The notes under the pieces were generated by a model that saw only the letters and a list, made by a program, of their open reading frames with translations, searched no databases and was not told where the DNA came from. From Lachnospiraceae bacterium (GTDB lineage Bacteria; Bacillota; Clostridia; Lachnospirales; Lachnospiraceae), in the NCBI GenBank assembly GCA_024698555.1, contig JAILRI010000202.1:1-37554 (forward strand): a DNA stretch of 37,554 bases, written 5' to 3'. A program made the translations under genes and the position numbers. Below, in pieces: positions 11,541 through 37,519 of this stretch; position 1 is the stretch's first letter; every line of letters begins with the position of its first letter.

Positions 11541-13094
11541 TTAATCTTCTCTTACGGCCTTCATGGCCTTTTTATTTTCATACATGATGGCATCCGCCCG
11601 TTTAAAGGTATCTGAGATCGACTTGTCGACAGCAGGGTCGAACCGGGCGAAACCGACGGCAGCGGAAGTTCTTCTCCAGGGCTTTAAGCTCTCGTCCTTT
11701 GACAGCGCGTCGATCCTGCGCCTGAACGCCTCCTCGTCCTTTTCGGCATTGTCAAAGCTGTTTCCTACCAGCACCGCGACAAATTCATCTCCGCCTATGC
11801 GGTAAACATTTTCAGCGGGATAAATATCACATACCAGCTCGTAAAGGTTGATGAGAGCGGCATTTCCTTTGGAATGACCGTATGTATCGTTGATCTTTTT
11901 CAGGTAGTTCAGATCGATCATGGCGATACCGAATTCGGTATTGCCGCTGTTGATCAGATTGTCGATATTGCCGCACATACTGTCGTAAGCGGTCTTGTTG
12001 TAGGAACCCGTCAGCGAATCCTTCATGGCCAGCTGGTTGACTACCACTTCACGGGCCTTTGAATCGGTATACAGTGACTGCGCCTCTGAATATTCATCCA
12101 GATATTTCTTCAGTTCACGGATCATCTCAGCGACCTGGGCAGTCAGGCTTTCCATCTCTATCGAGGTGCAGGAGGCCGGATTGAGCCTGTCTGCTATCTG
12201 ATAATCCTTGGTAACGCTGAACTCATGCACCGCATTGTTCAGTTTGGTTATATTGTTAACATAACGGCGCTTGATAATGAGAAACATACCAACACCGCAA
12301 AGTAAGTATACCAGAGCAACCACCGCGCCCAGCAGGATCGCGTTCCATGCCGCGGCGGAATTGACAGCGCTTATATCTATCTCGCTGACTATCAGACCCA
12401 TCTTCTCCCCGTTTATGATCACAGGAGTATAGTAGGAATAAGTACGTCCGTTCTCATTGTCCCATTTCTGGAATTCGTCCAGCTCCTCACCGAGCTTCCA
12501 GGTATTCCACATAATGGGCACTTCCTCAGGATCATTTTCCTCCGGCGAGTCCGAAAAATATACGACCATTTCATCAGGATTGTCTTCTTTTGGGCTCTTC
12601 CAGACATCCACGATATAAGATACGCTTGAGTCGTCATTCGGCACGATCATGTAAAAATATGTAAGCTTAAACTCATCCTTTACCGCCTGAAACATATTCC
12701 ACCAATATACGGTATCGTACTCCAGATATTTTATCAGAGCGTCACCTTCCAGGTCGTCAATGGTTATATCCGTCCCGAAATTCTTGCCCGGATAATCGGC
12801 GGAAAATATTTCCAAAAATCGGTTGTACTCATCCTGACTGTTTATATCGTTCATGGAAATATGCATCTGATCGCCATATTCCTTAAGATATTTGGCAAAC
12901 CGGTAAAAATCATTGCTGTCTGCAAGGATCTGGTGCCTCATATATGCGTTTATATTCTTCAATTCAAGTAGATGAAGATCGCGGTGCACTCCATACTCGT
13001 TCCTGTATGCTATTGCAACGAACGTACATATCGAAATGATCCCGAATATAATGAAAATGACGGCAAATTGTACGGCCAATGTCCGTTTCTTCAT
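11541..13094 (-). CDS. Membrane-bound GGDEF diguanylate cyclase with a Cache-like extracytoplasmic sensor
   Basis: Track ORF extends to 13166; ATG at 13094 (MKKRTLAVQFAVIF) is preceded by GGAGG. Two TM segments flank a ~220-aa extracytoplasmic region; YRIGGDEFVAVL intact. Confidence 0.9.
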   Translation of the reverse strand: MKKRTLAVQFAVIFIIFGIISICTFVAIAYRNEYGVHRDLHLLELKNINAYMRHQILADSNDFYRFAKYLKEYGDQMHISMNDINSQDEYNRFLEIFSADYPGKNFGTDITIDDLEGDALIKYLEYDTVYWWNMFQAVKDEFKLTYFYMIVPNDDSSVSYIVDVWKSPKEDNPDEMVVYFSDSPEENDPEEVPIMWNTWKLGEELDEFQKWDNENGRTYSYYTPVIINGEKMGLIVSEIDISAVNSAAAWNAILLGAVVALVYLLCGVGMFLIIKRRYVNNITKLNNAVHEFSVTKDYQIADRLNPASCTSIEMESLTAQVAEMIRELKKYLDEYSEAQSLYTDSKAREVVVNQLAMKDSLTGSYNKTAYDSMCGNIDNLINSGNTEFGIAMIDLNYLKKINDTYGHSKGNAALINLYELVCDIYPAENVYRIGGDEFVAVLVGNSFDNAEKDEEAFRRRIDALSKDESLKPWRRTSAAVGFARFDPAVDKSISDTFKRADAIMYENKKAMKAVRED

Positions 13095-13293
13095 TTCAAA
13101 CCTCCGCTTGTTACAAAACTGCCCTGAACAGCAGCTTTTTTGCCCCCTCTCGGTTTTTACCCACACACAATTAGAGGTATTATAACATCATTATCCGAAA
13201 TATACAACTTTTTTCAAAAAATGACTTCATTTACTTTTATACATATGCTATGATACGTGTCGGATCAAATTCCTTATAAGGGAGCAGGAAGAC

Positions 13294-22486: not shown

Positions 22487-25400
22487 ATGCACGAAAGTGA
22501 AAAACGCTCGGCAGCGGCTGCATTTGCCGGCTATTGGAAAGGTAAAGGAGACGAGAAGGGAGAGTCACAGAAATTCTGGCTGTCCCTTTTAAAGGATGTG
22601 CTGGGAGTAGAGCATCCGGAACAGTTTATCCGCTTTGAGGACAGAGTGTTTTTAGGACACACGAGCTTCATAGACGCTTATATTCCTGAAACAAAGGTAC
22701 TGATCGAGCAGAAGAAGCTGGGAAAGGATTTAAGGGAACCTGTACGTCAGTCGGACGGGACGTTACTTACGCCATTTTCACAGGCCAAGAGATATGCCGC
22801 AGAACTGCCTTACTCGCAAAGGCCGCGGTGGATCGTAACCTGCAATTTCAGCACTTTTCATGTATATGACATGGAGTTGCCGGGCGGGGATCCTGAGGTC
22901 ATTGAACTGGAAAATCTGGAAAAAGAATATTACAGACTGAACTTTCTTGTAGACAGCGGCAATGAGAACCTTAAAAGGGAGATGGAGGTTTCCGTTGCTG
23001 CAGGCGAACTCGTGGGAGTACTGTATGATGCCCTGCTTAAGGAATACAAGAATCCGACGAATCCTGAAAGCCTTCGCAGTCTGAACAAGCTTTGCGTTCG
23101 TATTGTGTTCTGCCTTTACGCAGAAGACGCGGGTATTTTCGGGAACCGCACTATGTTCCACGACTATATGGAAGCGTTCGATGCAAGGAGCAGCCGGAAG
23201 GCTTTAATTGAGCTTTTCCGCGTACTGGATGAGAAACCTGAGGAACGCGATCCGTATTTGGACGAGGCTCTTGCGGCATTCCCGTATGTAAACGGTGGAT
23301 TGTTTTCTGATGAACAGATAGAAATCCCAAATTTCACGGATGAAATACGTCGGATCATCCTGTCAAAAGCGAGTGAGGATTTTGATTGGAGCGAGATATC
23401 TCCGACTATCTTCGGTGCGGTATTTGAGAGTACACTTAACCCTGAAACCAGGCGTTGCGGTGGCATGCATTATACCAGTATAGAGAATATACATAAAGTA
23501 ATTGATCCGTTGTTTCTTGATAGTCTGAAGGAAGAGTTTGAAAATATAAAGTCTACCGCTGTAGAAAAGACTAAAAAGCAGAATTTACATACATTTCAGG
23601 ATAAGCTGGCGTCTTTTAAGTTTTTAGACCCGGCCTGCGGTTCCGGAAATTTCCTGACCGAAGCGTTTCTGTCTATCCGACGTTTGGAAAATGCTGTCTT
23701 AAACGAGCTTCAGGATGGACAGATCACTCTGGGTGATGTTATTAATCCTGTAAAATGTTCGATACGGCAATTTTACGGGATCGAGATCAATGATTTTGCT
23801 GTAACGGTGGCCAAGACCGCACTTTGGATCGCCGAAAGCCAGATGTTAAAGGAGACGGAATCCATTGTCCATAAACATCTGGATTTCCTGCCCCTTAAGA
23901 CCAACGCTCATATAGTCGAGGGGAACGCGTTAAGGATGGATTGGACCCTGCTTCATGACAAAACTGTAATTCCGGTGATCCGCGCGAAGAAAGCGCATCT
24001 GATTACTTACGGGGACGCGCTGAAAAAAGGGATATTAAGCGAAACCGGTGAAGTCCGGGAGTCTCCGTTTGATTATACACTGAAAGGCAAATATGACGAG
24101 ATAAACCTTATAGTGGATGAGATGGACATGGAAGAACCTGTTCCTGCCGTGGAAGAGGTTCATTATGACTACATCATGGGAAATCCTCCATTTGTGGGAT
24201 ATTCGTTCCAAAGCCGGGAGCAGAAAGAAGACATCCTGTCCGTTTATCTGGATGAAAATGGACGTTCTTATAAAACAGCCGGGAAGATGGATTATGTAGC
24301 GGGTTGGTATTACAAAGCGGCGAAGCTTATGCAGGGGACTAATGTGAAAACCGCGTTTGTATCCACGAACTCAATTACTCAGGGCGAGCAGGTGGCCTCG
24401 ATATGGAAACCGCTTTATGAATTGTTCGGGATACATATCGATTTCGCCTATAAAACATTTCGATGGGATAGCGAGTCAAGTTCAAAAGCACATGTTCATT
24501 GTGTCATCGTAGGTTTTAGCTGTGATATTGTTCCGGAAAAGCGAAAAATATATACTTCAGAACGTTTCAATTATGTTGAAAATATCAATCCTTATCTGAT
24601 CGATGCTCCGGATATTTTTATCGAATCTCGGAAACAGCCGTTGGGAGATGTGCCTGAGATGACTACCGGAAACAGACCGGCCGATGGAGGCAATCTTATT
24701 ATCGAAGCAGATGAATATGATGATTTCATATGCAGGGAACCGGAATCCAGAAAGTATATAAAGAGGCTGGTAGGATCAGAAGAGTTCATAAACAACAAAA
24801 AACGATACTGCCTGTGGCTGGTCGGAGTTTCGCCTACGCAACTGCGTTCTATGCCGCTGGTCATGAAGAGAGTAGAGGCTTGCAGGGCTGACAGGCAAAA
24901 AGGTGCTCCTGACAGACAGAAATTAGCGGATACACCGATGCTGTTCCGGGAAACAAAGAATCCGGATATGTGCATCATTGTTCCGGCTACAAGCTCGGAG
25001 AAAAGAAGATATGTTCCGATAGGATTTTTGGATAATTCAACAATTACAACAAATTCCTGTCTGATCATCCCGAACGCGACACTGTACCATTTCGGTATCC
25101 TCACCTCCAATGTCCATATGGCATGGATGCGGACTGTCGCCGGAAGGCTGAAGAGCGACTACAGATATTCCAAAGAGATCGTGTACAACAACTTCCCTTG
25201 GCCCGAACCAAACGATGCGCAAAAGGTTGAGATAGAGGCCGCCGCGCAGATGATCCTTACTGTACGCGCAAAGTATCCTGACTGTTCGCTGGCGGATCTG
25301 TATGATGACATAGCTATGCCTCCGGACCTGCGTAAGGCACATCAGGAAAATGATAAGGCAGTTATGCGAGCCTATGGTTTTTCCATAAGGGACACCACTG

Positions 25401-25510
25401 AGGCAGGGTGTGTCGGAGAACTCATGAAGCTGTACCGGATGAAGGCAGACAGTAAGCACACGAACAGTTCTATGCTCTATAGTGAGGATAAAGAGAAAAA
25501 TGTTAAATAA
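22487..25510 (+). CDS. MmeI-like (type IIL) single-chain restriction endonuclease/N6-adenine methyltransferase
   Basis: 1007 aa; nuclease motif D-X10-EQK (FIDAYIPETKVLIEQKK), helical spacer, motif I FLDPACGSGNFL, motif IV GNPPFVGY, C-terminal target-recognition region. Confidence 0.87.
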   Translation: MHESEKRSAAAAFAGYWKGKGDEKGESQKFWLSLLKDVLGVEHPEQFIRFEDRVFLGHTSFIDAYIPETKVLIEQKKLGKDLREPVRQSDGTLLTPFSQAKRYAAELPYSQRPRWIVTCNFSTFHVYDMELPGGDPEVIELENLEKEYYRLNFLVDSGNENLKREMEVSVAAGELVGVLYDALLKEYKNPTNPESLRSLNKLCVRIVFCLYAEDAGIFGNRTMFHDYMEAFDARSSRKALIELFRVLDEKPEERDPYLDEALAAFPYVNGGLFSDEQIEIPNFTDEIRRIILSKASEDFDWSEISPTIFGAVFESTLNPETRRCGGMHYTSIENIHKVIDPLFLDSLKEEFENIKSTAVEKTKKQNLHTFQDKLASFKFLDPACGSGNFLTEAFLSIRRLENAVLNELQDGQITLGDVINPVKCSIRQFYGIEINDFAVTVAKTALWIAESQMLKETESIVHKHLDFLPLKTNAHIVEGNALRMDWTLLHDKTVIPVIRAKKAHLITYGDALKKGILSETGEVRESPFDYTLKGKYDEINLIVDEMDMEEPVPAVEEVHYDYIMGNPPFVGYSFQSREQKEDILSVYLDENGRSYKTAGKMDYVAGWYYKAAKLMQGTNVKTAFVSTNSITQGEQVASIWKPLYELFGIHIDFAYKTFRWDSESSSKAHVHCVIVGFSCDIVPEKRKIYTSERFNYVENINPYLIDAPDIFIESRKQPLGDVPEMTTGNRPADGGNLIIEADEYDDFICREPESRKYIKRLVGSEEFINNKKRYCLWLVGVSPTQLRSMPLVMKRVEACRADRQKGAPDRQKLADTPMLFRETKNPDMCIIVPATSSEKRRYVPIGFLDNSTITTNSCLIIPNATLYHFGILTSNVHMAWMRTVAGRLKSDYRYSKEIVYNNFPWPEPNDAQKVEIEAAAQMILTVRAKYPDCSLADLYDDIAMPPDLRKAHQENDKAVMRAYGFSIRDTTEAGCVGELMKLYRMKADSKHTNSSMLYSEDKEKNVK

Positions 25511-25707: not shown

Positions 25708-27624
25708 TTAATTTGTACGTTCCTTCTTCCTCGCGTGTTTGTCGAGATACATGGCCTCATCAGCCTTCTTCAGCACCTGATCGAAATCGGGAAAAGAATC
25801 GATCTTTACGCATTCCTGGCCGATACTTGCAGAAATGCTGTAGGGCTTGGCCGAAATATCTTTTCTTCGTGAAAGAGTGTTCTCCAGACGGTTTCTTGCG
25901 GTATCGGGCGAGAGATAGATCGGCTGGTCGGTGATCAGGGCGCATACGAACTCATCGCCGCCGAAACGCGCGCATATACCGTTTCTTGCGGAGAAATTCC
26001 TGATAGCCTCAGCCATGGCACTGATCGCGATATCACCTTCATTGTGCCCGAAATTGTCATTTATATATTTCAGACCGTCCATATCCACGGAAAACAAGGA
26101 AATATAGCGTCCGATGGAGGCTTTAGTGATCCTGGCAAGCTCGTCAAAGAAACCGCGTCTGTTATAAAGACCGGTCAGATGATCGTGTATAGCAGCCTGT
26201 TCCATTTCCTGATTCATCTGTCTCAGCTTTTCATTGAACCAGAAAAGCTTGCCGTTCTTCAAGATTTCACTGATCACGGTGGATACGAACATACCGAACT
26301 CGTCGCAGCGCCGCATGGAGCGCATATCTATGCCGTTAAAGCCCTCCATCAGATACCCGTAGATCTCTGAATCGGTAAACAGGAGCCTTAGCATAAACAG
26401 ATCATATCCGTTATCCTCTTCCAGAAGCCTTTCAAAATCAGGAATTGCTATATTTCTTTCATACGAATCTCCGACTTTTAATGGCTGCCCGTGCTCCATG
26501 CGCAGAAGCGTCGTAAATCCGGAACCGGAATAATAATCGGGATAATTTACCAGTTCTGAGCGAACTCCAATGAAATAAAAATAATTGACCCACATCTCAA
26601 CAGAGTATTCCAGAAGGGGTGTAAGTTCCTGAAGGTGTTGTTTGTCAGCGGCTGCCAGCATCATGGAATTCATGGCCGAAACCTGCCATTTCTGGTCGTT
26701 GAACGCGAAAGAAAGCTTGTTGATCAATTCCTTCGTAGAACTGTCGTCAGCATCTCCGCAGCCGCAGGAGGAATTTTCCCTGACAATATAGTCGATAGAT
26801 ATCGTTTTTCCGTAATCCGGCTTGTTCCCTGCCTCCCATTGCTCCATAAGCTCCAGCAGTACGCAGACTTCTTTGTCGTAGTCGGGGGCTACGGTGGAAA
26901 TAGGAGGAAAATTGAGCATTCCGCTCATGATCCCGTCAAATCCGGTAACGATCACGTCACCGGGAACCTGATACCCGGCTTCCTTAAGTACGGCGCAGGC
27001 AGCGATGGCCATGGTATCATTGGCGCAGACTATCGCATCCGGGATATCTCCCGACTCAATGAAGCGGGCAGTGGCTTCGCGTGCAGGTCTGTCCCAAAAA
27101 TCACCGTAAGCCAGCCTTTCGGGCTCAAAGGGTATATCATGCTCGGCAAGAGCCTGTTTGTATGCTTCGATACGTTCTTCGGAGAAATCATTGCCGAGGA
27201 AGCCGGCGATCATATTGATCTTTCTGCATCCATGATGGTCGATCACGTGACTGAGCATATTTTTGAAGCCGTCACCGAATTTGGATGCTATATTGATACA
27301 GCCTTCAATGTACCGGTCCATAGCAAAAACAGGGATATTCATGCCATCGGCGGAAGCTTTGATCAGTTCACGCATGCGGGGCGTCTTTATAGTCTCGCCC
27401 AGGATGACCAGCGCGTCTATGGGGAATTTGGATATCATTTCCACCAGAGACTTCTCGTTCATGATCTCGTCGTCATGCTTTAACGGGTCAGTGGACAGGT
27501 TAAAGATCATGACCGCATAGCCCTTGCCGCGGCAGAATTGATTAAGCCTGCTGATAAAGCTGTATTCCTTTTCCTCGTAAACCTGAGCGCCGCACACGGC
27601 GATGATCTTTTTGCGCTGCCCCAT
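25708..27624 (-). CDS. Cytoplasmic LacI-type substrate-binding domain fused to a GGDEF diguanylate cyclase
   Basis: 638 aa; periplasmic-binding-like fold without HTH (IPDAIVCANDTMAIAACAVLKEAGYQVPGDVIVTGFDG), middle region, then DHLTGLYNRRGFFDEL...CARFGGDEFVCAL. Confidence 0.93.
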   Translation of the reverse strand: MGQRKKIIAVCGAQVYEEKEYSFISRLNQFCRGKGYAVMIFNLSTDPLKHDDEIMNEKSLVEMISKFPIDALVILGETIKTPRMRELIKASADGMNIPVFAMDRYIEGCINIASKFGDGFKNMLSHVIDHHGCRKINMIAGFLGNDFSEERIEAYKQALAEHDIPFEPERLAYGDFWDRPAREATARFIESGDIPDAIVCANDTMAIAACAVLKEAGYQVPGDVIVTGFDGIMSGMLNFPPISTVAPDYDKEVCVLLELMEQWEAGNKPDYGKTISIDYIVRENSSCGCGDADDSSTKELINKLSFAFNDQKWQVSAMNSMMLAAADKQHLQELTPLLEYSVEMWVNYFYFIGVRSELVNYPDYYSGSGFTTLLRMEHGQPLKVGDSYERNIAIPDFERLLEEDNGYDLFMLRLLFTDSEIYGYLMEGFNGIDMRSMRRCDEFGMFVSTVISEILKNGKLFWFNEKLRQMNQEMEQAAIHDHLTGLYNRRGFFDELARITKASIGRYISLFSVDMDGLKYINDNFGHNEGDIAISAMAEAIRNFSARNGICARFGGDEFVCALITDQPIYLSPDTARNRLENTLSRRKDISAKPYSISASIGQECVKIDSFPDFDQVLKKADEAMYLDKHARKKERTN

Positions 27625-27642: not shown

Positions 27643-28998
27643 TTACTTCAGATCCGAAAAGAAGGTATAGGAATTCTTCCCGCGATCCTTTGATGTATAC
27701 ATGGCGGCGTCGATCTTTTCGAAAAGATTGTCCGCGCCGCCGGCCTGCTTCCCGTGAATGATACCCACGCTGACGGAGAAGGGAACCGTTCCGTCGGAAG
27801 TATCCTCGAGTTCTTTGCTGATCTGCTCCATCTTTGCCGAAACGAGCTTTTTCTGCGCGTTGTTGGTATGAACCATAAAGACGATAAACTCGTCTCCGCC
27901 GATACGGCAGATACAGTCGTCATCCCTGAAAACGCTTTCAAGTACGTGTACGAGCTTGATCAGAGCCTTATCACCGGCTTCATGTCCGTAATTATCGTTG
28001 ATGGTCTTGAAATTGTCCACATCAAAAAGCATTACGTAGGTGGAGTCAAGGTCAATACTCGAAAGCAGCAGATCATACCCCGAACGGTTATAGGCGCCTG
28101 TCAGCTCGTCATGAGAGGCTTTGTATTTCAGATGATCAAGACTGTGTCTGTAGCTGGAATACATCTTGTTGTAGGCCTTGGCCAGATAACGGAATTCGTT
28201 GGCGCCCTTTTCCGGGATAGGTGAATCGGATCTGATCATGTCCACAGCCCGCAGGACCGGATTGATTCCGAGGAGTGACGTCATGATCACCATGAACAGG
28301 ATAAACAGAGTCTGGATCACTATGACTATGCGTACTATGGTCAGCTCGCGGCTGAGGGTGGTATGTTCCTCAGCTTCTGTATTCAAGGCCATCTCATCGA
28401 TAGCGGCCAGGCTTTCCCGCATGTCGGTCCTGATACGGTCTTTACGGGCATAATAGTCGTTGTTCAGTACCATGTCAGTTGCCCGCCTCATTTTGTCCTC
28501 AGGAGCAAGAGCGGCATCTTCGTCACTGAGCCGGATGCTTTCCAGCAGTTCGGGATAATCTGTGTACCCCTTAGCTTCGATCACCAGCTTCATGGCATAG
28601 TATTCGGTATCCATAAGGATCACCGAATTATTAAGGGCTTCCTGAAGCTGCTTCAAGGCCTCGGAGGACTCTTCACCGGTACTCATCTTTGCGATCGCAT
28701 CTTCACGGCGCTGTGATCTGAAGGCCTCGTCAAAATAGTCATTCAAAAACTGCATGTCGCCGTCAAGCGTAAAACGCTGAACCCGCTCTGTCAGATAATC
28801 CGATGCGTCCATGAGCTCGTAGGCGGCCTTTGCCAGCTCGGTATGCTGTTCATGGGCATGGGTCAGGCGTGAAAATGTATTGGTCAGCCAGAATGTGGAA
28901 AACAGCACTATCACAGACATGATCACAGTGATGACTATCTGCCAGACCTGTATCCTTCGCAGGGACACTCCTTCTTTAATGATCCCGTTCATGTACAT
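27643..28998 (-). CDS. Membrane GGDEF diguanylate cyclase with an extracytoplasmic helical sensor
   Basis: ATG 28998 (MYMNGIIKEGVSLRRIQVWQ) preceded by AAAGGA; track ORF extends to 29106 into the upstream gene. Two TM segments, HAMP-like region, CRIGGDEFIVFM. Confidence 0.9.
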   Translation of the reverse strand: MYMNGIIKEGVSLRRIQVWQIVITVIMSVIVLFSTFWLTNTFSRLTHAHEQHTELAKAAYELMDASDYLTERVQRFTLDGDMQFLNDYFDEAFRSQRREDAIAKMSTGEESSEALKQLQEALNNSVILMDTEYYAMKLVIEAKGYTDYPELLESIRLSDEDAALAPEDKMRRATDMVLNNDYYARKDRIRTDMRESLAAIDEMALNTEAEEHTTLSRELTIVRIVIVIQTLFILFMVIMTSLLGINPVLRAVDMIRSDSPIPEKGANEFRYLAKAYNKMYSSYRHSLDHLKYKASHDELTGAYNRSGYDLLLSSIDLDSTYVMLFDVDNFKTINDNYGHEAGDKALIKLVHVLESVFRDDDCICRIGGDEFIVFMVHTNNAQKKLVSAKMEQISKELEDTSDGTVPFSVSVGIIHGKQAGGADNLFEKIDAAMYTSKDRGKNSYTFFSDLK

Positions 28999-29009
28999 AT
29001 TTAATCCTT

Positions 29010-29759
29010 TTACTCGTAATCTACCACATCTACCCATTTCAGCAGGAAATCGCGTTCCTTCTTGATAGCCTTGACAGACTGTGAGGCTGCGACGATGGGC
29101 ATCCATTTCTGGACGTACTGTCTGGCCGTATCGCTCTTTAAGCAGAACAGATCGAGATACATCTCGGCCTTCTTTGTATCACCCTCAAGGCTGAACAGAA
29201 GGTAAGTACGGGCCGCGTCCGCGGAGGCGTTACCCTGGGTCACGTGCGCCCAGTCAATGACAAAAGGCACATCGTCCTTGGTAATGATCACGTTGGAAGG
29301 GTTAAAATCACCATGGCAAACCTTATTGTGCGTAGGCATGCCCTCCAGCCTGGTGTGCAGCTCATATCTGGTGGTGGCATCGAGCTTGGTCTGGCTGATC
29401 TTGCCCTGCATTTTATCCTTCAGCTTATTCAGCATGGGACAGGTATGAGCCTGTATGGAAAGCTGTATATCCACCAAACGTTCCATGTATTTCTTCAGAT
29501 GTCTCGGATCTTTTTCCATCATTTCGGCGAGAGTCACGCCTTCGATATATTCGTAAACTATAGCCCATTTGCCGTCTATCGTTGTAACCTCAAGCAGCTT
29601 GCCGACATTGATCCCGGTCTGCTCGATACGGGCTAAGTTGAGAGCCTCGTTTAAGACATCGGCTTTGGAATATGATTCGTCGAAAAGCTTTATGCACTTC
29701 TTACCGTCGCGGTAAACCGTTTTGTTTTTTCTTGTTGCAATGACATTATCCAGTTTCAT
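29010..29759 (-). CDS. APH/choline-kinase-fold phosphotransferase
   Basis: 249 aa; catalytic loop HGDFNPSNVII and metal-binding VIDWAHV; N-lobe KKCIKLF. Confidence 0.85.
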   Translation of the reverse strand: MKLDNVIATRKNKTVYRDGKKCIKLFDESYSKADVLNEALNLARIEQTGINVGKLLEVTTIDGKWAIVYEYIEGVTLAEMMEKDPRHLKKYMERLVDIQLSIQAHTCPMLNKLKDKMQGKISQTKLDATTRYELHTRLEGMPTHNKVCHGDFNPSNVIITKDDVPFVIDWAHVTQGNASADAARTYLLFSLEGDTKKAEMYLDLFCLKSDTARQYVQKWMPIVAASQSVKAIKKERDFLLKWVDVVDYE

Positions 29760-29770
29760 GATGTACCCCC

Positions 29771-32700
29771 TTAGCGCTTATTACGGCTGTTGCCGGTAGA
29801 TTTCTTTGATGTGCTCTTTTTAGGCTGTCTTCCTGCCTTCCTGCCCGGTTTTTCTGCCTTTTTTATCGCTGTCGCGGTATTATTATCTGTCAAGGCTGCT
29901 TTAGCCGGTCTGCCCCGTCTCTTTGACGCGGCGGGAACTACAGCCTCGGTTTCCTCACTAACTGCGGCCGGTGTTTCTGCGACTGCCGGTGCGGGTGAAA
30001 TACCTGCTTTAGCTTCCGATGCCGCAGTGTTAACTGTCTTAGTCTCAGGTACTGCGGCGGTGTTACCGGTACCGGCAGCATCAGAAGCCGTCTGTCCTGC
30101 AGCGTTCGGTCTTCTCCCGGGTCTCCTTTGTACTACAGGCGTAGTCTTGCCATCCTTAGAATCCGCTGTTTTACCGTAATAAGCGTTCAGATACATTTGC
30201 TTTATCTCGCTCATCAGCGGATATCTGGGGTTCGCGCCGGTGCACTGGTCATCAAATGCCTGCTCGGTCATGGCATCGAGTCTGTCCAGGAAATCCTTTT
30301 CATCGGGCACATAATCACGGATGGTGGGCTTGATGCCGATTCTTGCCTTCAGCTTGTCAATGGCCTTGATGAGATTGTTCAGCTTTTCTTCGTCAGTTCT
30401 GCCGCCCAGCTTCAGGTGATCGGCTACCTGTGCGTATCTGGCCAGCGTATGAGGGTAGCTGTACTGCGGGAAGGTTCCCATCTTCGTCGGAACCTCGGCA
30501 GCGTTGAAACGCAGCACTTCATCGATCATAAGGGCATTGGCAACGCCATGCGCTATATGATGGAAGGCGCCGAGCTTGTGAGCCATGGAATGGCATACAC
30601 CGAGGAACGCATTGGCGAAAGCCATACCTGCCATAGTCGCAGCATTGGCCATCTTCTCTCTGGCGACCTCGTCCACTGTACCGTTATCGTAAGCTCTGGG
30701 AAGGTATTCGAAAATGGTGTCGAGAGCCTTCAGAGCCAGTCCGTCCGTATAATCGGTCGCCATCATGGAAGCGTAAGCCTCGAGAGCATGGGTTACCGCG
30801 TCGATACCGGATGCGGCTGTCAGACCCTTCGGAGCTGTCATATGGAAATCGGTATCGATAATGGCCATCTTGGGTAACAGCTCATAATCGGCCAGAGGAT
30901 ACTTGATGCCGGTCTTTTCGTCTGTAATTACCGCGAAGGGAGTAACCTCCGAGCCTGTACCCGCAGAGGTGGGAATGGCGATGAAATACGCCTTTTCGCC
31001 CATCTTCGGGAAAGTATAGATCCTCTTCCTGATGTCCATGAAGCGCATGGCCATATCCATAAAATCTACTTCGGGATGCTCATACAGTACCCACATGATC
31101 TTGGCAGCATCCATGGCTGAACCGCCGCCTAAGGCAATGATCACATCCGGCTTGAAGGACGTCATGGCCGCGGCTCCGGCCTTGGCGGAGACAATCGTCG
31201 GGTCGGGCTCGACATCAAAGAAGCAGTTATAGGCAATCCCCATCTCTTCGAGCTTGTCGGTTATGGGCTTTGTATTGCCGTTGTGATAAAGGAAATTGTC
31301 GGTTACGACAAACGCGCGTTTCTTGCCCATTACAGTTTTAAGCTCATCAAGAGCAACGGGCAGACACCCTTTCTTGATATATATCTTTTCAGGCGCTCTG
31401 AACCAAAGCATGTTTTCTCTCCTCTCAGCGACCGTTTTGTAGTTAAGCAGATGCTTGATGCCGACATTTTCACTTACGGAGTTGCCGCCCCAGGAGCCGC
31501 AGCCCAAAGTGAGAGAGGGTCTGAGCATAAAATTGTAGATATCGCCGATACCGCCCTGTGAGGAAGGCGTGTTGACCAGGATACGGCAGGTCTTCATCCT
31601 TTCGGCAAATTCATCCAGCTTATCCTTGGCAGTAACAGTATTTAAGTAAATAGAGGAGGTATGGCCGTAACCGCCGTCGGCGATCAGGCGCTCAGCCTTT
31701 GAAAACGCGTCTTGAATATCCTTCGCTTTGTACATGGCCAATACCGGAGAAAGCTTCTCATGGGCAAATTCCTCGGAAAGCTCTACTGACCTTACTTCGC
31801 CGATAAGTACCTTGGTTGTCTCGGGAACCGTGACACCGGCAAGTTCAGCAATGGTCGCGGCCTTCTGCCCTACGATCTTCGCGTTGAGCGCGCCGTTGAC
31901 AAGGATGGTCTTACGCACCTTATCCTTTTCGGCGGGCTTTAAGAAATAACAGCCTCTTTTCGAAAATTCATTTTTAACTGCGTCATAAACCTTGTCAAGA
32001 ACGATGACTGACTGCTCGGAGGCACATATCATACCGTTGTCGAAGGTCTTGGAATGTATGATGGAGTTGACAGCGAGTACGATATCTGCGCTGTCATCTA
32101 TAATGGCGGGAGTGTTGCCGGCGCCTACGCCCAAAGCGGGCTTGCCGCTGGAATACGCGGCCTTTACCATGCCGGGTCCGCCGGTAGCCAGGATTATGTC
32201 GGATTCCTTCATAACGAGATTGGTCATCTCCAGGCTCGGAACATCGATCCATGCGATGATCCCTTCAGGAGCTCCGGCTGCCACGGCCGCTTCCAGCACG
32301 ACCTTTGCTGCCGCAATGGTTGAGAGCCTGGCTCTGGGATGAGGACTGATGATGATACCGTTTCTCGTCTTGAGTGCTATCAGAGTCTTGAAAATAGCGG
32401 TAGATGTAGGATTCGTGGTAGGAATGACCGCACCGATCACGCCGATGGATTCGGCAACGGTTTTGGTTCCGAATTCCTTATTTTCAGCGATCACCCCGCA
32501 GGTCTTCACATCACGGTAGGCATTGTAGATATATTCGGCGGCGTAGTGGTTCTTGATCACCTTGTCCTCGACAACTCCCATGCCGGTCTCTTCCACTGCC
32601 AGCTTCGCGAGCGGTATTCGCTCCTTGTCAGCGGCGGTCGCTGCCGCAAGGAATATACGGTCAACCTGTTCCTGTGTATATTCCGCAAATACGCGCTGTG

Positions 32701-32773
32701 CCTTTTTTACCTGTGTGATGGCGGCTTCCAGCTTATCTACGCTGTCTACCACCGTATACGTTACATTTTTCAT
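29771..32773 (-). CDS. adhE: Bifunctional acetaldehyde-CoA/alcohol dehydrogenase with an extra C-terminal basic AT-hook-like tail
   Basis: ALDH half (NNGMICASEQSVIV, GHTSSIY) plus Fe-ADH half (ALGGGSAMDAAKIMW, GIDAVTHALEAY, CHSMAHKLGAFHHIAHG). ATG 32773 preceded by AAAGGAG; the track start is 32797. Residues after NAYYGK form a ~132-aa tail (29771-30169). Confidence 0.96.
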   Translation of the reverse strand: MKNVTYTVVDSVDKLEAAITQVKKAQRVFAEYTQEQVDRIFLAAATAADKERIPLAKLAVEETGMGVVEDKVIKNHYAAEYIYNAYRDVKTCGVIAENKEFGTKTVAESIGVIGAVIPTTNPTSTAIFKTLIALKTRNGIIISPHPRARLSTIAAAKVVLEAAVAAGAPEGIIAWIDVPSLEMTNLVMKESDIILATGGPGMVKAAYSSGKPALGVGAGNTPAIIDDSADIVLAVNSIIHSKTFDNGMICASEQSVIVLDKVYDAVKNEFSKRGCYFLKPAEKDKVRKTILVNGALNAKIVGQKAATIAELAGVTVPETTKVLIGEVRSVELSEEFAHEKLSPVLAMYKAKDIQDAFSKAERLIADGGYGHTSSIYLNTVTAKDKLDEFAERMKTCRILVNTPSSQGGIGDIYNFMLRPSLTLGCGSWGGNSVSENVGIKHLLNYKTVAERRENMLWFRAPEKIYIKKGCLPVALDELKTVMGKKRAFVVTDNFLYHNGNTKPITDKLEEMGIAYNCFFDVEPDPTIVSAKAGAAAMTSFKPDVIIALGGGSAMDAAKIMWVLYEHPEVDFMDMAMRFMDIRKRIYTFPKMGEKAYFIAIPTSAGTGSEVTPFAVITDEKTGIKYPLADYELLPKMAIIDTDFHMTAPKGLTAASGIDAVTHALEAYASMMATDYTDGLALKALDTIFEYLPRAYDNGTVDEVAREKMANAATMAGMAFANAFLGVCHSMAHKLGAFHHIAHGVANALMIDEVLRFNAAEVPTKMGTFPQYSYPHTLARYAQVADHLKLGGRTDEEKLNNLIKAIDKLKARIGIKPTIRDYVPDEKDFLDRLDAMTEQAFDDQCTGANPRYPLMSEIKQMYLNAYYGKTADSKDGKTTPVVQRRPGRRPNAAGQTASDAAGTGNTAAVPETKTVNTAASEAKAGISPAPAVAETPAAVSEETEAVVPAASKRRGRPAKAALTDNNTATAIKKAEKPGRKAGRQPKKSTSKKSTGNSRNKR

Positions 32774-32813
32774 TCTGACTCCTTTCCAAAATGACATTTT
32801 CCCCCAACATTAC

Positions 32814-32899: not shown

Positions 32900-35800
32900 T
32901 TATTTTTTTATCCTCTTCACCTTCACTCCCTCGGGGAGACCGGATGCTTCGATGAGAGCCTTTGCCTTATCGAATTCTTTCTTCGTTGCAGTCTGGATCT
33001 TTATGACCGCATTGGGAGCAATATCGGCAAATGCGCCCGTGCTGACCTTCTTCAGGTTCAGTGAATAGATCAGTACGCTCTTTAGGTTGGACGCGCCCTT
33101 AAAAGCATTCTTTCCGATGGTATCGATAGTGCTTGATATCTTCACCTTGGTGATATCCGTGTTGCCGGCAAAAGCTTTCGCGCCGATAATGGATACCGGC
33201 TGCTTTGTGCCGTTGGATTCCACTGACTCGGGTATTGTAGCCGTACTGCCCTGTGTCTCATAGGAGGTAAGCTTGACCTTGCCCTTTGCGGATACGTCGT
33301 AGGTCTTGGTCACGCTGTCACCGTTGGACTTGGTGGTTGCCTGTATGAGAGTACCGCTTCCGTCAGCTTCAGTCTTCAGGGACTCTGCTACGACCTTGCC
33401 CTTTGTGGTAGTCTTGACCACGCTGGACTCGCTGCTTCCGTCGGCGTAAACCGTTGCGGACTCTACGATCTCAGTACCTCGTGAATTATAAGAACGCTCG
33501 GTCTCGGTAGCGGAAAGAACTTCGCCTTCCGTATCCATGACTACTGTGCTGGCAGTCATGCTCCCGTCGCTCTTTTCCTCCATCTTGGTCTCTGTGGTGG
33601 TCACCTGGCCGTCAGCGCCGGTCTCTACCTTGGTTTCCTCGGTAGTCTTTGTTCCATCGCTGCTCTCTTCGATCTTCGTTTCGGTGGTGGTCACCTGGCC
33701 GTCCTCTCCCGTCTCCATCCTGCTTTCGGTGGTCACGGTCAAGCCGTCCTCAGTCTTCTCCACTTTCGTCTCAGTAGTGGAAAGGACTTCTCCGTTCTCA
33801 CCCGTTACCGTCTCAGTCTTCTCAAGCGACCCGTCGGCATTTTCCTTAGTTTTGGCTGTGGTCACCGTGCCGTCTGCTGTTTTGGTCTCTTCTTTGGTTA
33901 CGGTGGATCCGTCGGCATTTTCAACAGTTTCAGTCTTTGTCGTGGTTCCGTCGGCCGTTACGGTTTCTTCCTTCGTGGTGGTTGATCCGTCGGAATTCTG
34001 TTCTACGGTTGTAGTAGTGGTAGATCCGTCTTTGTTCTCCGTAACCGTAGTCTCAACCGTACCTGCAGTATCGGTTGGTCCGCCGCCGTTGGCAGAACCT
34101 TCTCCCATGCTGCTTTCGCCGCCTGCGGTCGTTCCGCCGTCGGAAGTTGTTTTCCCCGTGGTCGTATCACCCTCAGACACTGCTCCACCCGTGGTCGTCC
34201 CTTCACCTGCAGTTGTTCCGCCGGTAGTTGTGCCTCCATCGATCGGCGTACCGCCACCAGTAGTTGTTCCGCCTGTGGTCGTCCCGTCGGTGCTTGTACC
34301 TCCACCTGTGGTTGTTCCTTCATCTATGGACGTTCCACCGCCTGTGGTGGTTCCGCTGCTCTGCTTATTTTTATAAGTTGCTGTTACCGTAACTGCCTTC
34401 GCAGGCATCTTAAACGTAGTAGTCGTGGAAGCTGCGTCAGCAAACTCCACGCCGTCGCTGCCCGTCCACCTGTCAAATTCCTGTCCGTCAGGGGCCGCAT
34501 CCGCTGTGATCGTTACTACAGCGTTTTCTTCATAGCTTCCGGATGTCACGGCTGTATCGCCGCTTCCTGCCTTGCCCTTTACGACATTGGCTGTATATAC
34601 CGGTTTGGGCGTTATGGTCAGAGTTCCGGTCCGATAAGCTACCGTATAGTTACCCTGTACCGTGTCACCCGCAGGTGTGATCACATAAGTGCCTGAAGTC
34701 TCGCCGGACGCTCTTGAAATGTTATAGGAGATCACATCATTTCCTATAACACCCGATACAGAGGCGGTAAAGGAAGGATCAGCCCCGCCCTCTGTTTTGT
34801 TTTTATCTTCGGCTGTGACTGTCGCATCCTTTCTTGCTATCGCAGCGGTTACAGAACCGCTCATTCCTTCATAATACTCAGTTCCTGCCAGTCTGTAATA
34901 TACCGTATAGCTGCCTGCGTTTACAGCGGCCGGTACATTATCCGAATAATCCCTTCCGTTAAGGCTGTATTGCAGAGTGCCATAATTACTGCTGCCCGCC
35001 GTTACCAGCTGCAGCGACTCTCCGTTATAAGTGAGGTTCTTTGCAACAGGAGCTGTAACAGCTGGAACAGCCTTATTTACCGTGAGCCTGATAAAGCTCT
35101 CGCCAATAGTCGTCTCCGATTCGTATTTTGCCGTGATGACTGCGGTTCCGGGCTTAAGGATGCTCACAACACCCGTACTGCTTACCGTCGCCACAGCTGT
35201 ATTATTGCCGGACCAGCTCCATGAAGCGGTACCCTCACCCGGAGCCGTAACACTGCCGCTCAGAGTAAAGGCGGCTTCTCCATAAACTGCGGTTCTGTCG
35301 CCACCTGCGATGCTTACCCCGGCATCAGACCTCTCTACGAAACGTACTACCACATTTACGGTAGAGTCCTCATAATTTTGGGAAGAGATGATCACCGGAA
35401 GGGTTATGGACGAACCGGTTGCGGCGCCTGCAAGTGAAACCGTTACCGTACCGGTAGCGCTGTCCACGCTCCAGGAGTTGAGAGACACATTGCCTGTAAT
35501 GCTTTCGGTACCCTTCGCATAGGAGGACGTTCCCGCGTCTGACGGCATCCTTCCTGCCGCAGACGTGGTGAAGGAGGTTAAGGTATATGCCTTGTCCAGA
35601 GTAACAGGGGTTAACGCCGACGTCTTGCTTCCGGCCTTCGTGATCTCAAAATCCACCGTTGCCGTTTTGTCGGTATCTACGGTAATACTTGCGGTATACG
35701 TTCCAGCGTCCGTCGGTGCTGTCGTACTCTTCGTATAGCTTGTTTGTCCGCGTCCCGCGTACTCTATCACGGGAACTGTCAATCCCAGCGATGTCCATGC

Positions 35801-37519
35801 CGCCTTATCCGCGATAACTGCACCTGTGTACGCGCTGCCGTTATATGTCGCATCCGCAGCGCTAATGGTCAGTGTAACCCTGCCATCAGTCAGTCCACAG
35901 GACGATACTGTTGAGGAACATGCTGCCGTGACAGTAGCGCCGCTTGCAGAGTAATCAAAGCTGTGCACATGTTTCGAAATAATAGTCAGCGCGTTACTTA
36001 TTTCACTGATATCAAAATAATCATCGTTGTTTTCACTGACATTTTCTGTTCCGAACATATAGACAATGTCATCACGGTTCTTTATGCCTGATGCCTCAAG
36101 TTTCACAAGCCCGTGATAAACTGTCAATGTGCCGATCGTACCGGTACATCCGTTTTCAGTCGTTCCGATCCCGATACCGTCCGCCCCCGACCCGCCGGTT
36201 GCAGTAATGGTTCCACCCTTGATGACTATATCGCCACCGGTAGTGTCAACTGCCAAAGCGCCGTTCAGGCCGATACCGGCTGAATATGTGCCGCCGGTCG
36301 CGCTAAGCGTTCCGTTTCCCTTGATGGTAAGGGTGCTTGCCAGACCGCCGAGCTGTATGCCTGCTTTTAAGTCTGCCCCTGTCACGCTGTTATCTCCGAC
36401 AAGGGTAATATCTGCTGTTCCGTCGCAAACGATACCGCCATTGATGGTTGCGCCGCTGAGCGTGATGTCTGCTCCGTCGGCAATTGTCACAGTGTGGCTC
36501 GTCGAGCCTGTCAGCACATCTTTATCGATGGCGGTAACGTCACCGGAAATTTCCGATAGATCAATCGTTGCGCCCGCCGTAACTGTCACATTGACGTTAG
36601 GCATGACAAAGGTGTATTGTCTGTTTCCGATATCGGTCAACGTCAGGTCGTTGTTGCCATCGTTCACACGCAGAGTAGACGCGTCAACTGCCGTACCGAG
36701 TGTCAGTGTGACCGTCGCACCCGGAAGCGCGGATGCAGCGCTTGCATTAACACTGGCAGTAATTTCATTTCTGATCGTAATATTGTGTTTTTGAGTATTT
36801 ACGGTAAACTTTGCGGTTGAGGCAGCGCTGGCGCCATCAGGATCCGTTGCCTTAAACGTAACCGTGGCAGAACCGTACCAATCCGGGTCCGGGATAACGA
36901 TACTCGCTACACGGTTGGGATCGATTACCACGCTCAGGTCACCATCTGCCCGATCATCGCCAATGGGAGTGATAACGCATTCCCAGAGGATCCGGTTTTT
37001 CGGATGATCGAGATCGTTGACGTAATCATCAAGCCAGATCTTGGCGAAGGTTTTACCTTCGTCTATCGTCTGGTCCGGGATCTGCCTGACTGTCGGCACA
37101 TTGTTCACAGATTCAACGTTGAAGTTCACTGTTTCAGAACCCTTGGCGCCCTTGGTGTCTGTCGCGGTAAAGGTAATGTCTTCGGAACCGTTCCAGTATT
37201 CGCTCGGAATTTCTATCGTCGCGACACGCTCGGGAGAAATAGACACCCTGAGTTGCTTATAGCCGGAAGCCGTCCACTGGATTTTGGATGGTTGATCTTC
37301 ATCGGTCACATACCTGTCCAGATTGATCGGGGCAAATCTTCCGCCTTCATTAATACTTTCTCCCGGAATTCCATCCACGACAGGAGCGGTGTTCTCTGCT
37401 TCCTCCGCCCGCACCACCATCGTAAACTGTGGCAGCGGCATAGCTGACAGCACCATCGCGGCTGTCAGTATAAATGTCGTTATACATTTCACCAGGCTCT
37501 TGCTTTTTCGTTTCATCAT
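32900..37519 (-). CDS. Large mosaic secreted/cell-surface protein
   Basis: 1539 aa with signal peptide. Two cadherin-like repeats, a Cthe_2159-like beta-helix region, Big_2-like and MBG-like domains, a Bacterial-repeat-like module, a Gly/Thr linker, a DG/TTET repeat stalk, and a C-terminal leucine-rich-repeat (LRR_5-like) segment. Confidence 0.9.
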   Translation of the reverse strand: MMKRKSKSLVKCITTFILTAAMVLSAMPLPQFTMVVRAEEAENTAPVVDGIPGESINEGGRFAPINLDRYVTDEDQPSKIQWTASGYKQLRVSISPERVATIEIPSEYWNGSEDITFTATDTKGAKGSETVNFNVESVNNVPTVRQIPDQTIDEGKTFAKIWLDDYVNDLDHPKNRILWECVITPIGDDRADGDLSVVIDPNRVASIVIPDPDWYGSATVTFKATDPDGASAASTAKFTVNTQKHNITIRNEITASVNASAASALPGATVTLTLGTAVDASTLRVNDGNNDLTLTDIGNRQYTFVMPNVNVTVTAGATIDLSEISGDVTAIDKDVLTGSTSHTVTIADGADITLSGATINGGIVCDGTADITLVGDNSVTGADLKAGIQLGGLASTLTIKGNGTLSATGGTYSAGIGLNGALAVDTTGGDIVIKGGTITATGGSGADGIGIGTTENGCTGTIGTLTVYHGLVKLEASGIKNRDDIVYMFGTENVSENNDDYFDISEISNALTIISKHVHSFDYSASGATVTAACSSTVSSCGLTDGRVTLTISAADATYNGSAYTGAVIADKAAWTSLGLTVPVIEYAGRGQTSYTKSTTAPTDAGTYTASITVDTDKTATVDFEITKAGSKTSALTPVTLDKAYTLTSFTTSAAGRMPSDAGTSSYAKGTESITGNVSLNSWSVDSATGTVTVSLAGAATGSSITLPVIISSQNYEDSTVNVVVRFVERSDAGVSIAGGDRTAVYGEAAFTLSGSVTAPGEGTASWSWSGNNTAVATVSSTGVVSILKPGTAVITAKYESETTIGESFIRLTVNKAVPAVTAPVAKNLTYNGESLQLVTAGSSNYGTLQYSLNGRDYSDNVPAAVNAGSYTVYYRLAGTEYYEGMSGSVTAAIARKDATVTAEDKNKTEGGADPSFTASVSGVIGNDVISYNISRASGETSGTYVITPAGDTVQGNYTVAYRTGTLTITPKPVYTANVVKGKAGSGDTAVTSGSYEENAVVTITADAAPDGQEFDRWTGSDGVEFADAASTTTTFKMPAKAVTVTATYKNKQSSGTTTGGGTSIDEGTTTGGGTSTDGTTTGGTTTGGGTPIDGGTTTGGTTAGEGTTTGGAVSEGDTTTGKTTSDGGTTAGGESSMGEGSANGGGPTDTAGTVETTVTENKDGSTTTTTVEQNSDGSTTTKEETVTADGTTTKTETVENADGSTVTKEETKTADGTVTTAKTKENADGSLEKTETVTGENGEVLSTTETKVEKTEDGLTVTTESRMETGEDGQVTTTETKIEESSDGTKTTEETKVETGADGQVTTTETKMEEKSDGSMTASTVVMDTEGEVLSATETERSYNSRGTEIVESATVYADGSSESSVVKTTTKGKVVAESLKTEADGSGTLIQATTKSNGDSVTKTYDVSAKGKVKLTSYETQGSTATIPESVESNGTKQPVSIIGAKAFAGNTDITKVKISSTIDTIGKNAFKGASNLKSVLIYSLNLKKVSTGAFADIAPNAVIKIQTATKKEFDKAKALIEASGLPEGVKVKRIKK
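33253..34060 (-). repeat. In-frame degenerate tandem repeat (~12-15 aa units, consensus-like xxxDGxxTTxET)
   Basis: Units such as VENADGSTVTKEET / RMETGEDGQVTTTET / KIEESSDGTKTTEET / KVETGADGQVTTTET read directly from the protein. Confidence 0.85.
34085..34358 (-). repeat. In-frame Gly/Thr-rich low-complexity repeat (TTTGGGT)n
   Basis: Protein SSGTTTGGGTSIDEGTTTGGGTSTDGTTTGGTTTGGGTPIDGGTTTGG... Confidence 0.85.

Follow-up and report, generated by a model that had tools for sequence, protein, structure and literature searches.

AdhE is one of the best-studied enzyme filaments, and basic C-terminal tails on it are already known in kind from Escherichia coli. The enzyme of E. coli K-12, which a preliminary description of the present locus held to be without an extension, ends in a disordered Lys/Ala-rich tail of 26 residues after YYGR (DYVEGETAAKKEAAPAKAEKKAKKSA), and a crystal structure of its ADH domain has no electron density for the last ~20 residues (PMC7470043). 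One study reports that E. coli AdhE sits on the 70S ribosome, close to where mRNA enters, and that it unwinds RNA in vitro (PMC4731797). Disordered, Lys/Ala/Pro-rich C-terminal extensions on proteins of large assemblies are also found in PhaF and AlgP of Pseudomonas: the disordered H1-like tail of PhaF binds DNA, with PhaF driving granule location and segregation (PMC3574117), and the KPAA tail of AlgP is required for even spacing of polyphosphate granules (PMC9239181). No paper on the function of an AdhE tail was found in searches of open-access literature. Here, we describe an AdhE, the main ethanol-making enzyme of a gut-type bacterium, with a tail of 132 residues, an extreme, long variant of this kind, encoded in 37,554 nt of contig JAILRI010000202.1 (hereafter the window) from a Lachnospiraceae bacterium (GCA_024698555.1). 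The source assembly is fragmented (275 contigs) and has an estimated contamination of 7.85%, so the species assignment of the contig is not certain. The features of the locus are as follows.

29771 to 32797, minus strand: adhE open reading frame, a single uninterrupted frame of 1008 aa.
30170 to 32797, minus strand: AdhE core (ALDH + Fe-ADH), residues 1-876, ending in IKQMYLNAYYGK, from NF010378 and PDB alignment.
29774 to 30169, minus strand: 132-aa C-terminal tail, residues 877-1008, predicted disordered, from translation, composition and AF2.
30107 to 30130, minus strand: basic patch 1, QRRPGRRP, residues 890-897, from sequence.
29894 to 29926, minus strand: basic patch 2, SKRRGRPAKAA, residues 958-968, with an AT-hook-like RGRP core, from AT_hook score and shuffle test.
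29774 to 29851, minus strand: basic patch 3, KPGRKAGRQPKKSTSKKSTGNSRNKR, residues 983-1008, the most basic stretch, from sequence.
29771 to 29773, minus strand: adhE stop codon TAA, which overlaps the AAGGGGG ribosome-binding site of the kinase gene.
29010 to 29759, minus strand: APH/choline-kinase-fold kinase of 249 aa (PF01636), its ATG 11 nt beyond the adhE stop.

The protein is a complete AdhE, with a normal core plus a tail. It scores 1373.8 bits with the AdhE equivalog NF010378 (PRK13805; cut-off 951) over residues 14-878, covering the whole ALDH-ADH fusion, and residue 876 marks the limit of alignment with solved AdhE chains. The best PDB match, 8UHW_A, aligns with the core end to end (1594 bits); unlike the window protein, its deposited chain stops ~3 residues after YYG and carries no tail. 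E. coli AdhE, a bifunctional acetaldehyde-CoA/alcohol dehydrogenase (PDB 6AHC, 6TQH), shares the enzyme architecture and a disordered Lys/Ala-rich tail after YYG, but its tail is shorter (26 vs 132 residues), less charged (net +2 vs +15) and without a GRP core.

The basic tail of ~132 aa and the three patches noted in the preliminary description are all present, in one open frame (A27 T16 K15 P11 R11 S10 G10; 26 Lys/Arg vs 11 Asp/Glu). Basic patches occupy both tail ends, with the RGRP patch about two-thirds along; residues 899-942 in mid-tail are close to neutral, and the last 22 residues include 9 basic and 0 acidic ones. An AF2 model of the whole AdhE, of moderate confidence and built on a shallow alignment (mean pLDDT 66.5), has a folded core, with pLDDT <50 and no secondary structure over residues 879-1008, and the charge-hydropathy rule also places the tail among disordered sequences (H 0.393 vs boundary 0.454). 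The tail is predicted to be an intrinsically disordered polycationic extension, and its composition, net charge and low pLDDT make it H1-like in the sense of a disordered, Lys/Ala/Pro-rich, strongly basic C-terminal region; the H1/HMG-like character first proposed for it is real and not an artefact. PhaF and AlgP, which are different proteins, resemble the longest AdhE tails of two other genomes (L212 and L247, below) most strongly. The window tail differs from theirs in having no KPAA-like tandem array, and indeed no tandem repeat to speak of, in being less basic per residue, and in its Arg-containing GRP-like patches.

Patch 2 had also been called a canonical AT-hook core. AT-hooks are defined by a GRP core flanked by basic residues (PMC11354804), an arrangement that SKRRGRPAKAA does have and that exceeds compositional chance: RGRP arises in 0.5%, and [KR][KR]GRP[AKR] in 0.1%, of composition-preserving shuffles of the window tail. 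The word canonical does not hold, since the match to Pfam AT_hook (PF02178; tail residues 83-92) reaches 13.5 bits (E 0.07) against a gathering threshold of 17.4, and a canonical AT-hook domain was rejected on this score. Like HMGA- and WhiB7-type AT-hooks, the window tail has an RGRP core with basic flanks; it differs from them in scoring below the Pfam cut-off, in having one full core only, and in its non-canonical patches PGRRP and PGRKAGRQP. From its residues we treat patch 2 as AT-hook-like rather than as an AT-hook domain, and AT-hook-specific reading of DNA by the tail is unsupported. A search of the window's own genome with the RGRP-tail pattern gave five matches with one other real case, a 32-aa fragment at a contig end that has two AT-hook cores, and a lineage-wide fashion for RGRP tails in that genome was rejected. 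The protein at G000:C228:3934-4029 (L143, L204) is truncated by the end of its contig; it terminates in two canonical AT-hook cores (KKRGRPRKHPVDEKPRRPRGRPRKES) and has weak matches in G017 and G019.

For comparison, AdhE C-termini were gathered by homology searches at genus, family and class level and from 80 named genome contigs, with one genome per species and with order-level matches screened solely by open-frame length. Of the 230 distinct C-termini, 127 extend 0-5 residues past the core, 37 by 6-19 (164 by <20), 14 by 20-29 and 48 by 30-45; four are longer (52, 69, 88 and 132), the window tail being the longest. The sample over-represents close relatives and frames that lack a stop where the core ends, so these proportions do not estimate population frequencies. 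Most sampled AdhEs are tail-less, and the function of the tail is hence dispensable to the enzyme; shorter basic tails are common, including in E. coli, which makes the window tail the extreme of a trend rather than unique. Extensions of >100 aa with GRP cores, a search for which had been suggested, are confined to the window in this sample, and [KR]GRP (or GR[KR]P) recurs in a single other C-terminus, the 34-aa tail of the sister genome G010; the core called canonical is kept in just this one relative.

G010 is the nearest relative (ADH half 91%, whole AdhE 89%, kinase 92% identical) and has the same gene order. Its AdhE frame runs past YYGR for 34 residues (KFVEEKKPSQVTAPTKSVKRGRPAGKTAAKKNRK) in the same location as the window tail, ends likewise before the kinase gene and contains KRGRP, with RGRP in 0.1% of shuffles of this tail. 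The flanking genes share ~80% DNA identity between window and G010, and conservation of the motif amounts to one core in two species, because the two tails align barely above shuffles (protein P about 0.07, DNA P 0.02). The G010 tail retains the start KFVEEKKP, and SVKRGRPAGK replaces, for example, the AVKAIYRRDKK of other tails, from which we infer that the RGRP patch arose by divergence from the basic end of the 30-45-aa tails.

These 30-45-aa tails mostly follow one layout, YYGK-HFxE-xxMP-x8-12-D-x-(V/F)-K-x-x-(Y/F)-R-x-x-K, and the final decapeptide is net positive in 47 of 48. A peptide of 30-37 aa (HFxE..MP..D.(V/F)K..(Y/F)R..K) is found in L043, L045, L032, L062, L099, L208, L215 and others, from gut and rumen Clostridia. 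This conserved peptide is likely ancestral to the long tails. H1-like AdhE tails with an F-x-E start followed by PAAKK-type repeats occur in L247 (G873; 88 aa, net +24) and L212 (G784; 69 aa, net +21), whose genomes belong to another family and share the class with the window; G784 encodes a second AdhE with the short conserved tail. Within the window's genus, a five-member clade has KST/KAA-rich tails of 30-52 aa (52 in L018; 38-41 in L012, L014 and L019), and the H1-like Lys/Ala/Pro tails of 52, 69 and 88 aa have net charges of +14 to +24. On a tree of the ADH half, made before inclusion of L212 and L247, the K/A-rich tails require a minimum of 3 changes when well-supported branches are counted and 5 on the best tree, which makes repeated gain probable. 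The window tail was rejected as a homologue of the tails of E. coli, L018 and L212, as alignments were no better than shuffles; the score with the L247 tail beats shuffles (P 0.005), which is not taken as homology because shuffling destroys charge clustering.

By analogy with PhaF and AlgP, nucleic-acid tethering appears to be the best-supported function of the tail, and we tentatively propose, with confidence a little short of an even balance, that it is an electrostatic tether of AdhE, probably as spirosomes, to nucleic acid. Because AdhE enzymes form spirosomes, many tails would be exposed on every filament, and the window AdhE presumably behaves as its family does. Clustered Lys/Arg patches, RGRP among them, could then bind nucleic acid weakly, multivalently and mostly independently of sequence, the ligand being nucleoid DNA and/or RNA and ribosomes. 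Just as the H1-like tails of PhaF and AlgP control where storage granules lie, such binding might place the filament within the cell or distribute it; both the binding and any benefit of positioning are proposed from the analogy. The earlier suggestion that the tail might make AdhE a redox-responsive regulator is unsupported. Nucleic-acid binding by the tail, if real, could partly account for how AdhE comes to be at ribosomes, and a central metabolic filament would join the few nucleoid-tied assemblies. On a wider and more doubtful view, some anaerobic Clostridia may have made their main fermentation filament nucleoid- or RNA-attached through H1- or AT-hook-like tails evolved repeatedly from a short ancestral peptide, coupling ethanol fermentation spatially to the chromosome or translation. 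The relatives offer a natural series of one enzyme with 0, 34, 69, 88 and 132 extra residues, in which the tail's role can be tested directly.

The tail may instead act on the filament itself, as a disordered, charged linker or brush through which spirosome length, extension or compaction, or solubility is tuned, or which contacts acidic protein partners or polyphosphate; we consider this possible, if on balance unlikely. The layout of the short tails (F-x-E, MP, D-x-V/F-K-x-x-Y/F-R-x-x-K), present on many AdhEs, resembles a protein-contact motif more than a nucleic-acid grip, the E. coli tail is disordered beside the ADH domain (PMC7470043), and association with polyphosphate granules is within the reach of such tails, as AlgP shows (PMC9239181). 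Against this, the window and H1-like tails have mostly lost the layout and taken on a more general basicity, which points to a non-specific polyanion as the ligand.

Rather improbable is a third reading, that the tail is recent, lightly constrained low-complexity growth between the core and the kinase gene, tolerated at an exposed C-terminus with no selected function. Tail length among relatives varies from 0 to 132 aa, and the window and G010 tails are hardly alignable between flanking genes that are far more alike, as expected of such growth. Sense frame 0 of the tail is stop-free and the most coding-like of the six frames. Its synonymous codon choice scores -0.002 vs 0.05 to 0.11 in core windows and lies between uniform (P 0.04) and genomic (P 0.03) usage; it falls in the low part of the range of other genes, with 7% of 132-codon stretches from other window genes scoring as low. 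Such weak adaptation of the codons is in keeping with a young segment under light constraint; the tail is presumably translated in vivo. Searches of the own genome and 24 genus genomes for a source of the tail DNA returned only chance matches of 18-35 nt, plasmids had no protein match to the tail, and a mobile or duplicated source was rejected on these two results and on the lack of any notable tandem repeat. Neutral growth accords poorly with a basic character that the sister species shares and that other tails have come to more than once, nor would random growth be expected to stay in frame, to end just where the next gene has its ribosome-binding site and to show RGRP in the two species alike.

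The adjacent gene raises the further idea that the kinase modifies the tail as a regulatory site and would thereby switch AdhE assembly or binding. The kinase has a confident AF2 model (pLDDT 93.7) and intact catalytic residues (H149, G150, D151, N156 and D169 invariant), has no sequence match in PDB, and shares 13-17% identity with its best Foldseek matches, APH(3')-Ia and LicA. Across many Clostridia, the gene after adhE encodes an APH-fold kinase in which the HGDFNPSNV/IDW motif is intact: this holds for 132 of the 163 sampled loci whose downstream sequence was long enough, and the median gap is 15 nt. The tail is rich in Ser/Thr and Lys. Regulation through the tail is nonetheless very unlikely: the kinase is equally present beside tail-less AdhE, so the tail is not needed for the adhE-kinase pairing, and the nearest structural matches of the kinase phosphorylate small molecules. 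The kinase need not be a drug-resistance enzyme, and the pair, on which searches of open-access literature found no paper, may be a more general finding than the tail.

Least probable of all, and rejected on the comparison with G010, is an artefact, whether a frameshift replacing the normal stop (a refuting outcome named in the preliminary description), a chimera or a lost stop, since, for all the fragmentation and contamination of the assembly and an antisense frame likewise open across the tail, no stop interrupts the 132 codons before the one that overlaps the ribosome-binding site of the kinase gene, and two separately assembled genomes have at one site, before the same neighbour, an in-frame basic tail with KRGRP/RRGRP.

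Other genes of the window include a complete MmeI-type (type IIL) restriction-modification enzyme with all five MmeI Pfam domains (22487-25510, plus strand). Upstream of adhE on the same strand, a 1539-aa protein with bacterial Ig, MBG, InlB B-repeat and BspA-type LRR domains (32900-37519, minus strand) is probably a surface protein. Three GGDEF proteins, one of them fused to a LacI-type periplasmic-binding domain, are encoded within the 37 kb (25708-27624, 27643-29106 and 11541-13166, all minus strand), two of the three genes lying just downstream of the adhE-kinase pair.
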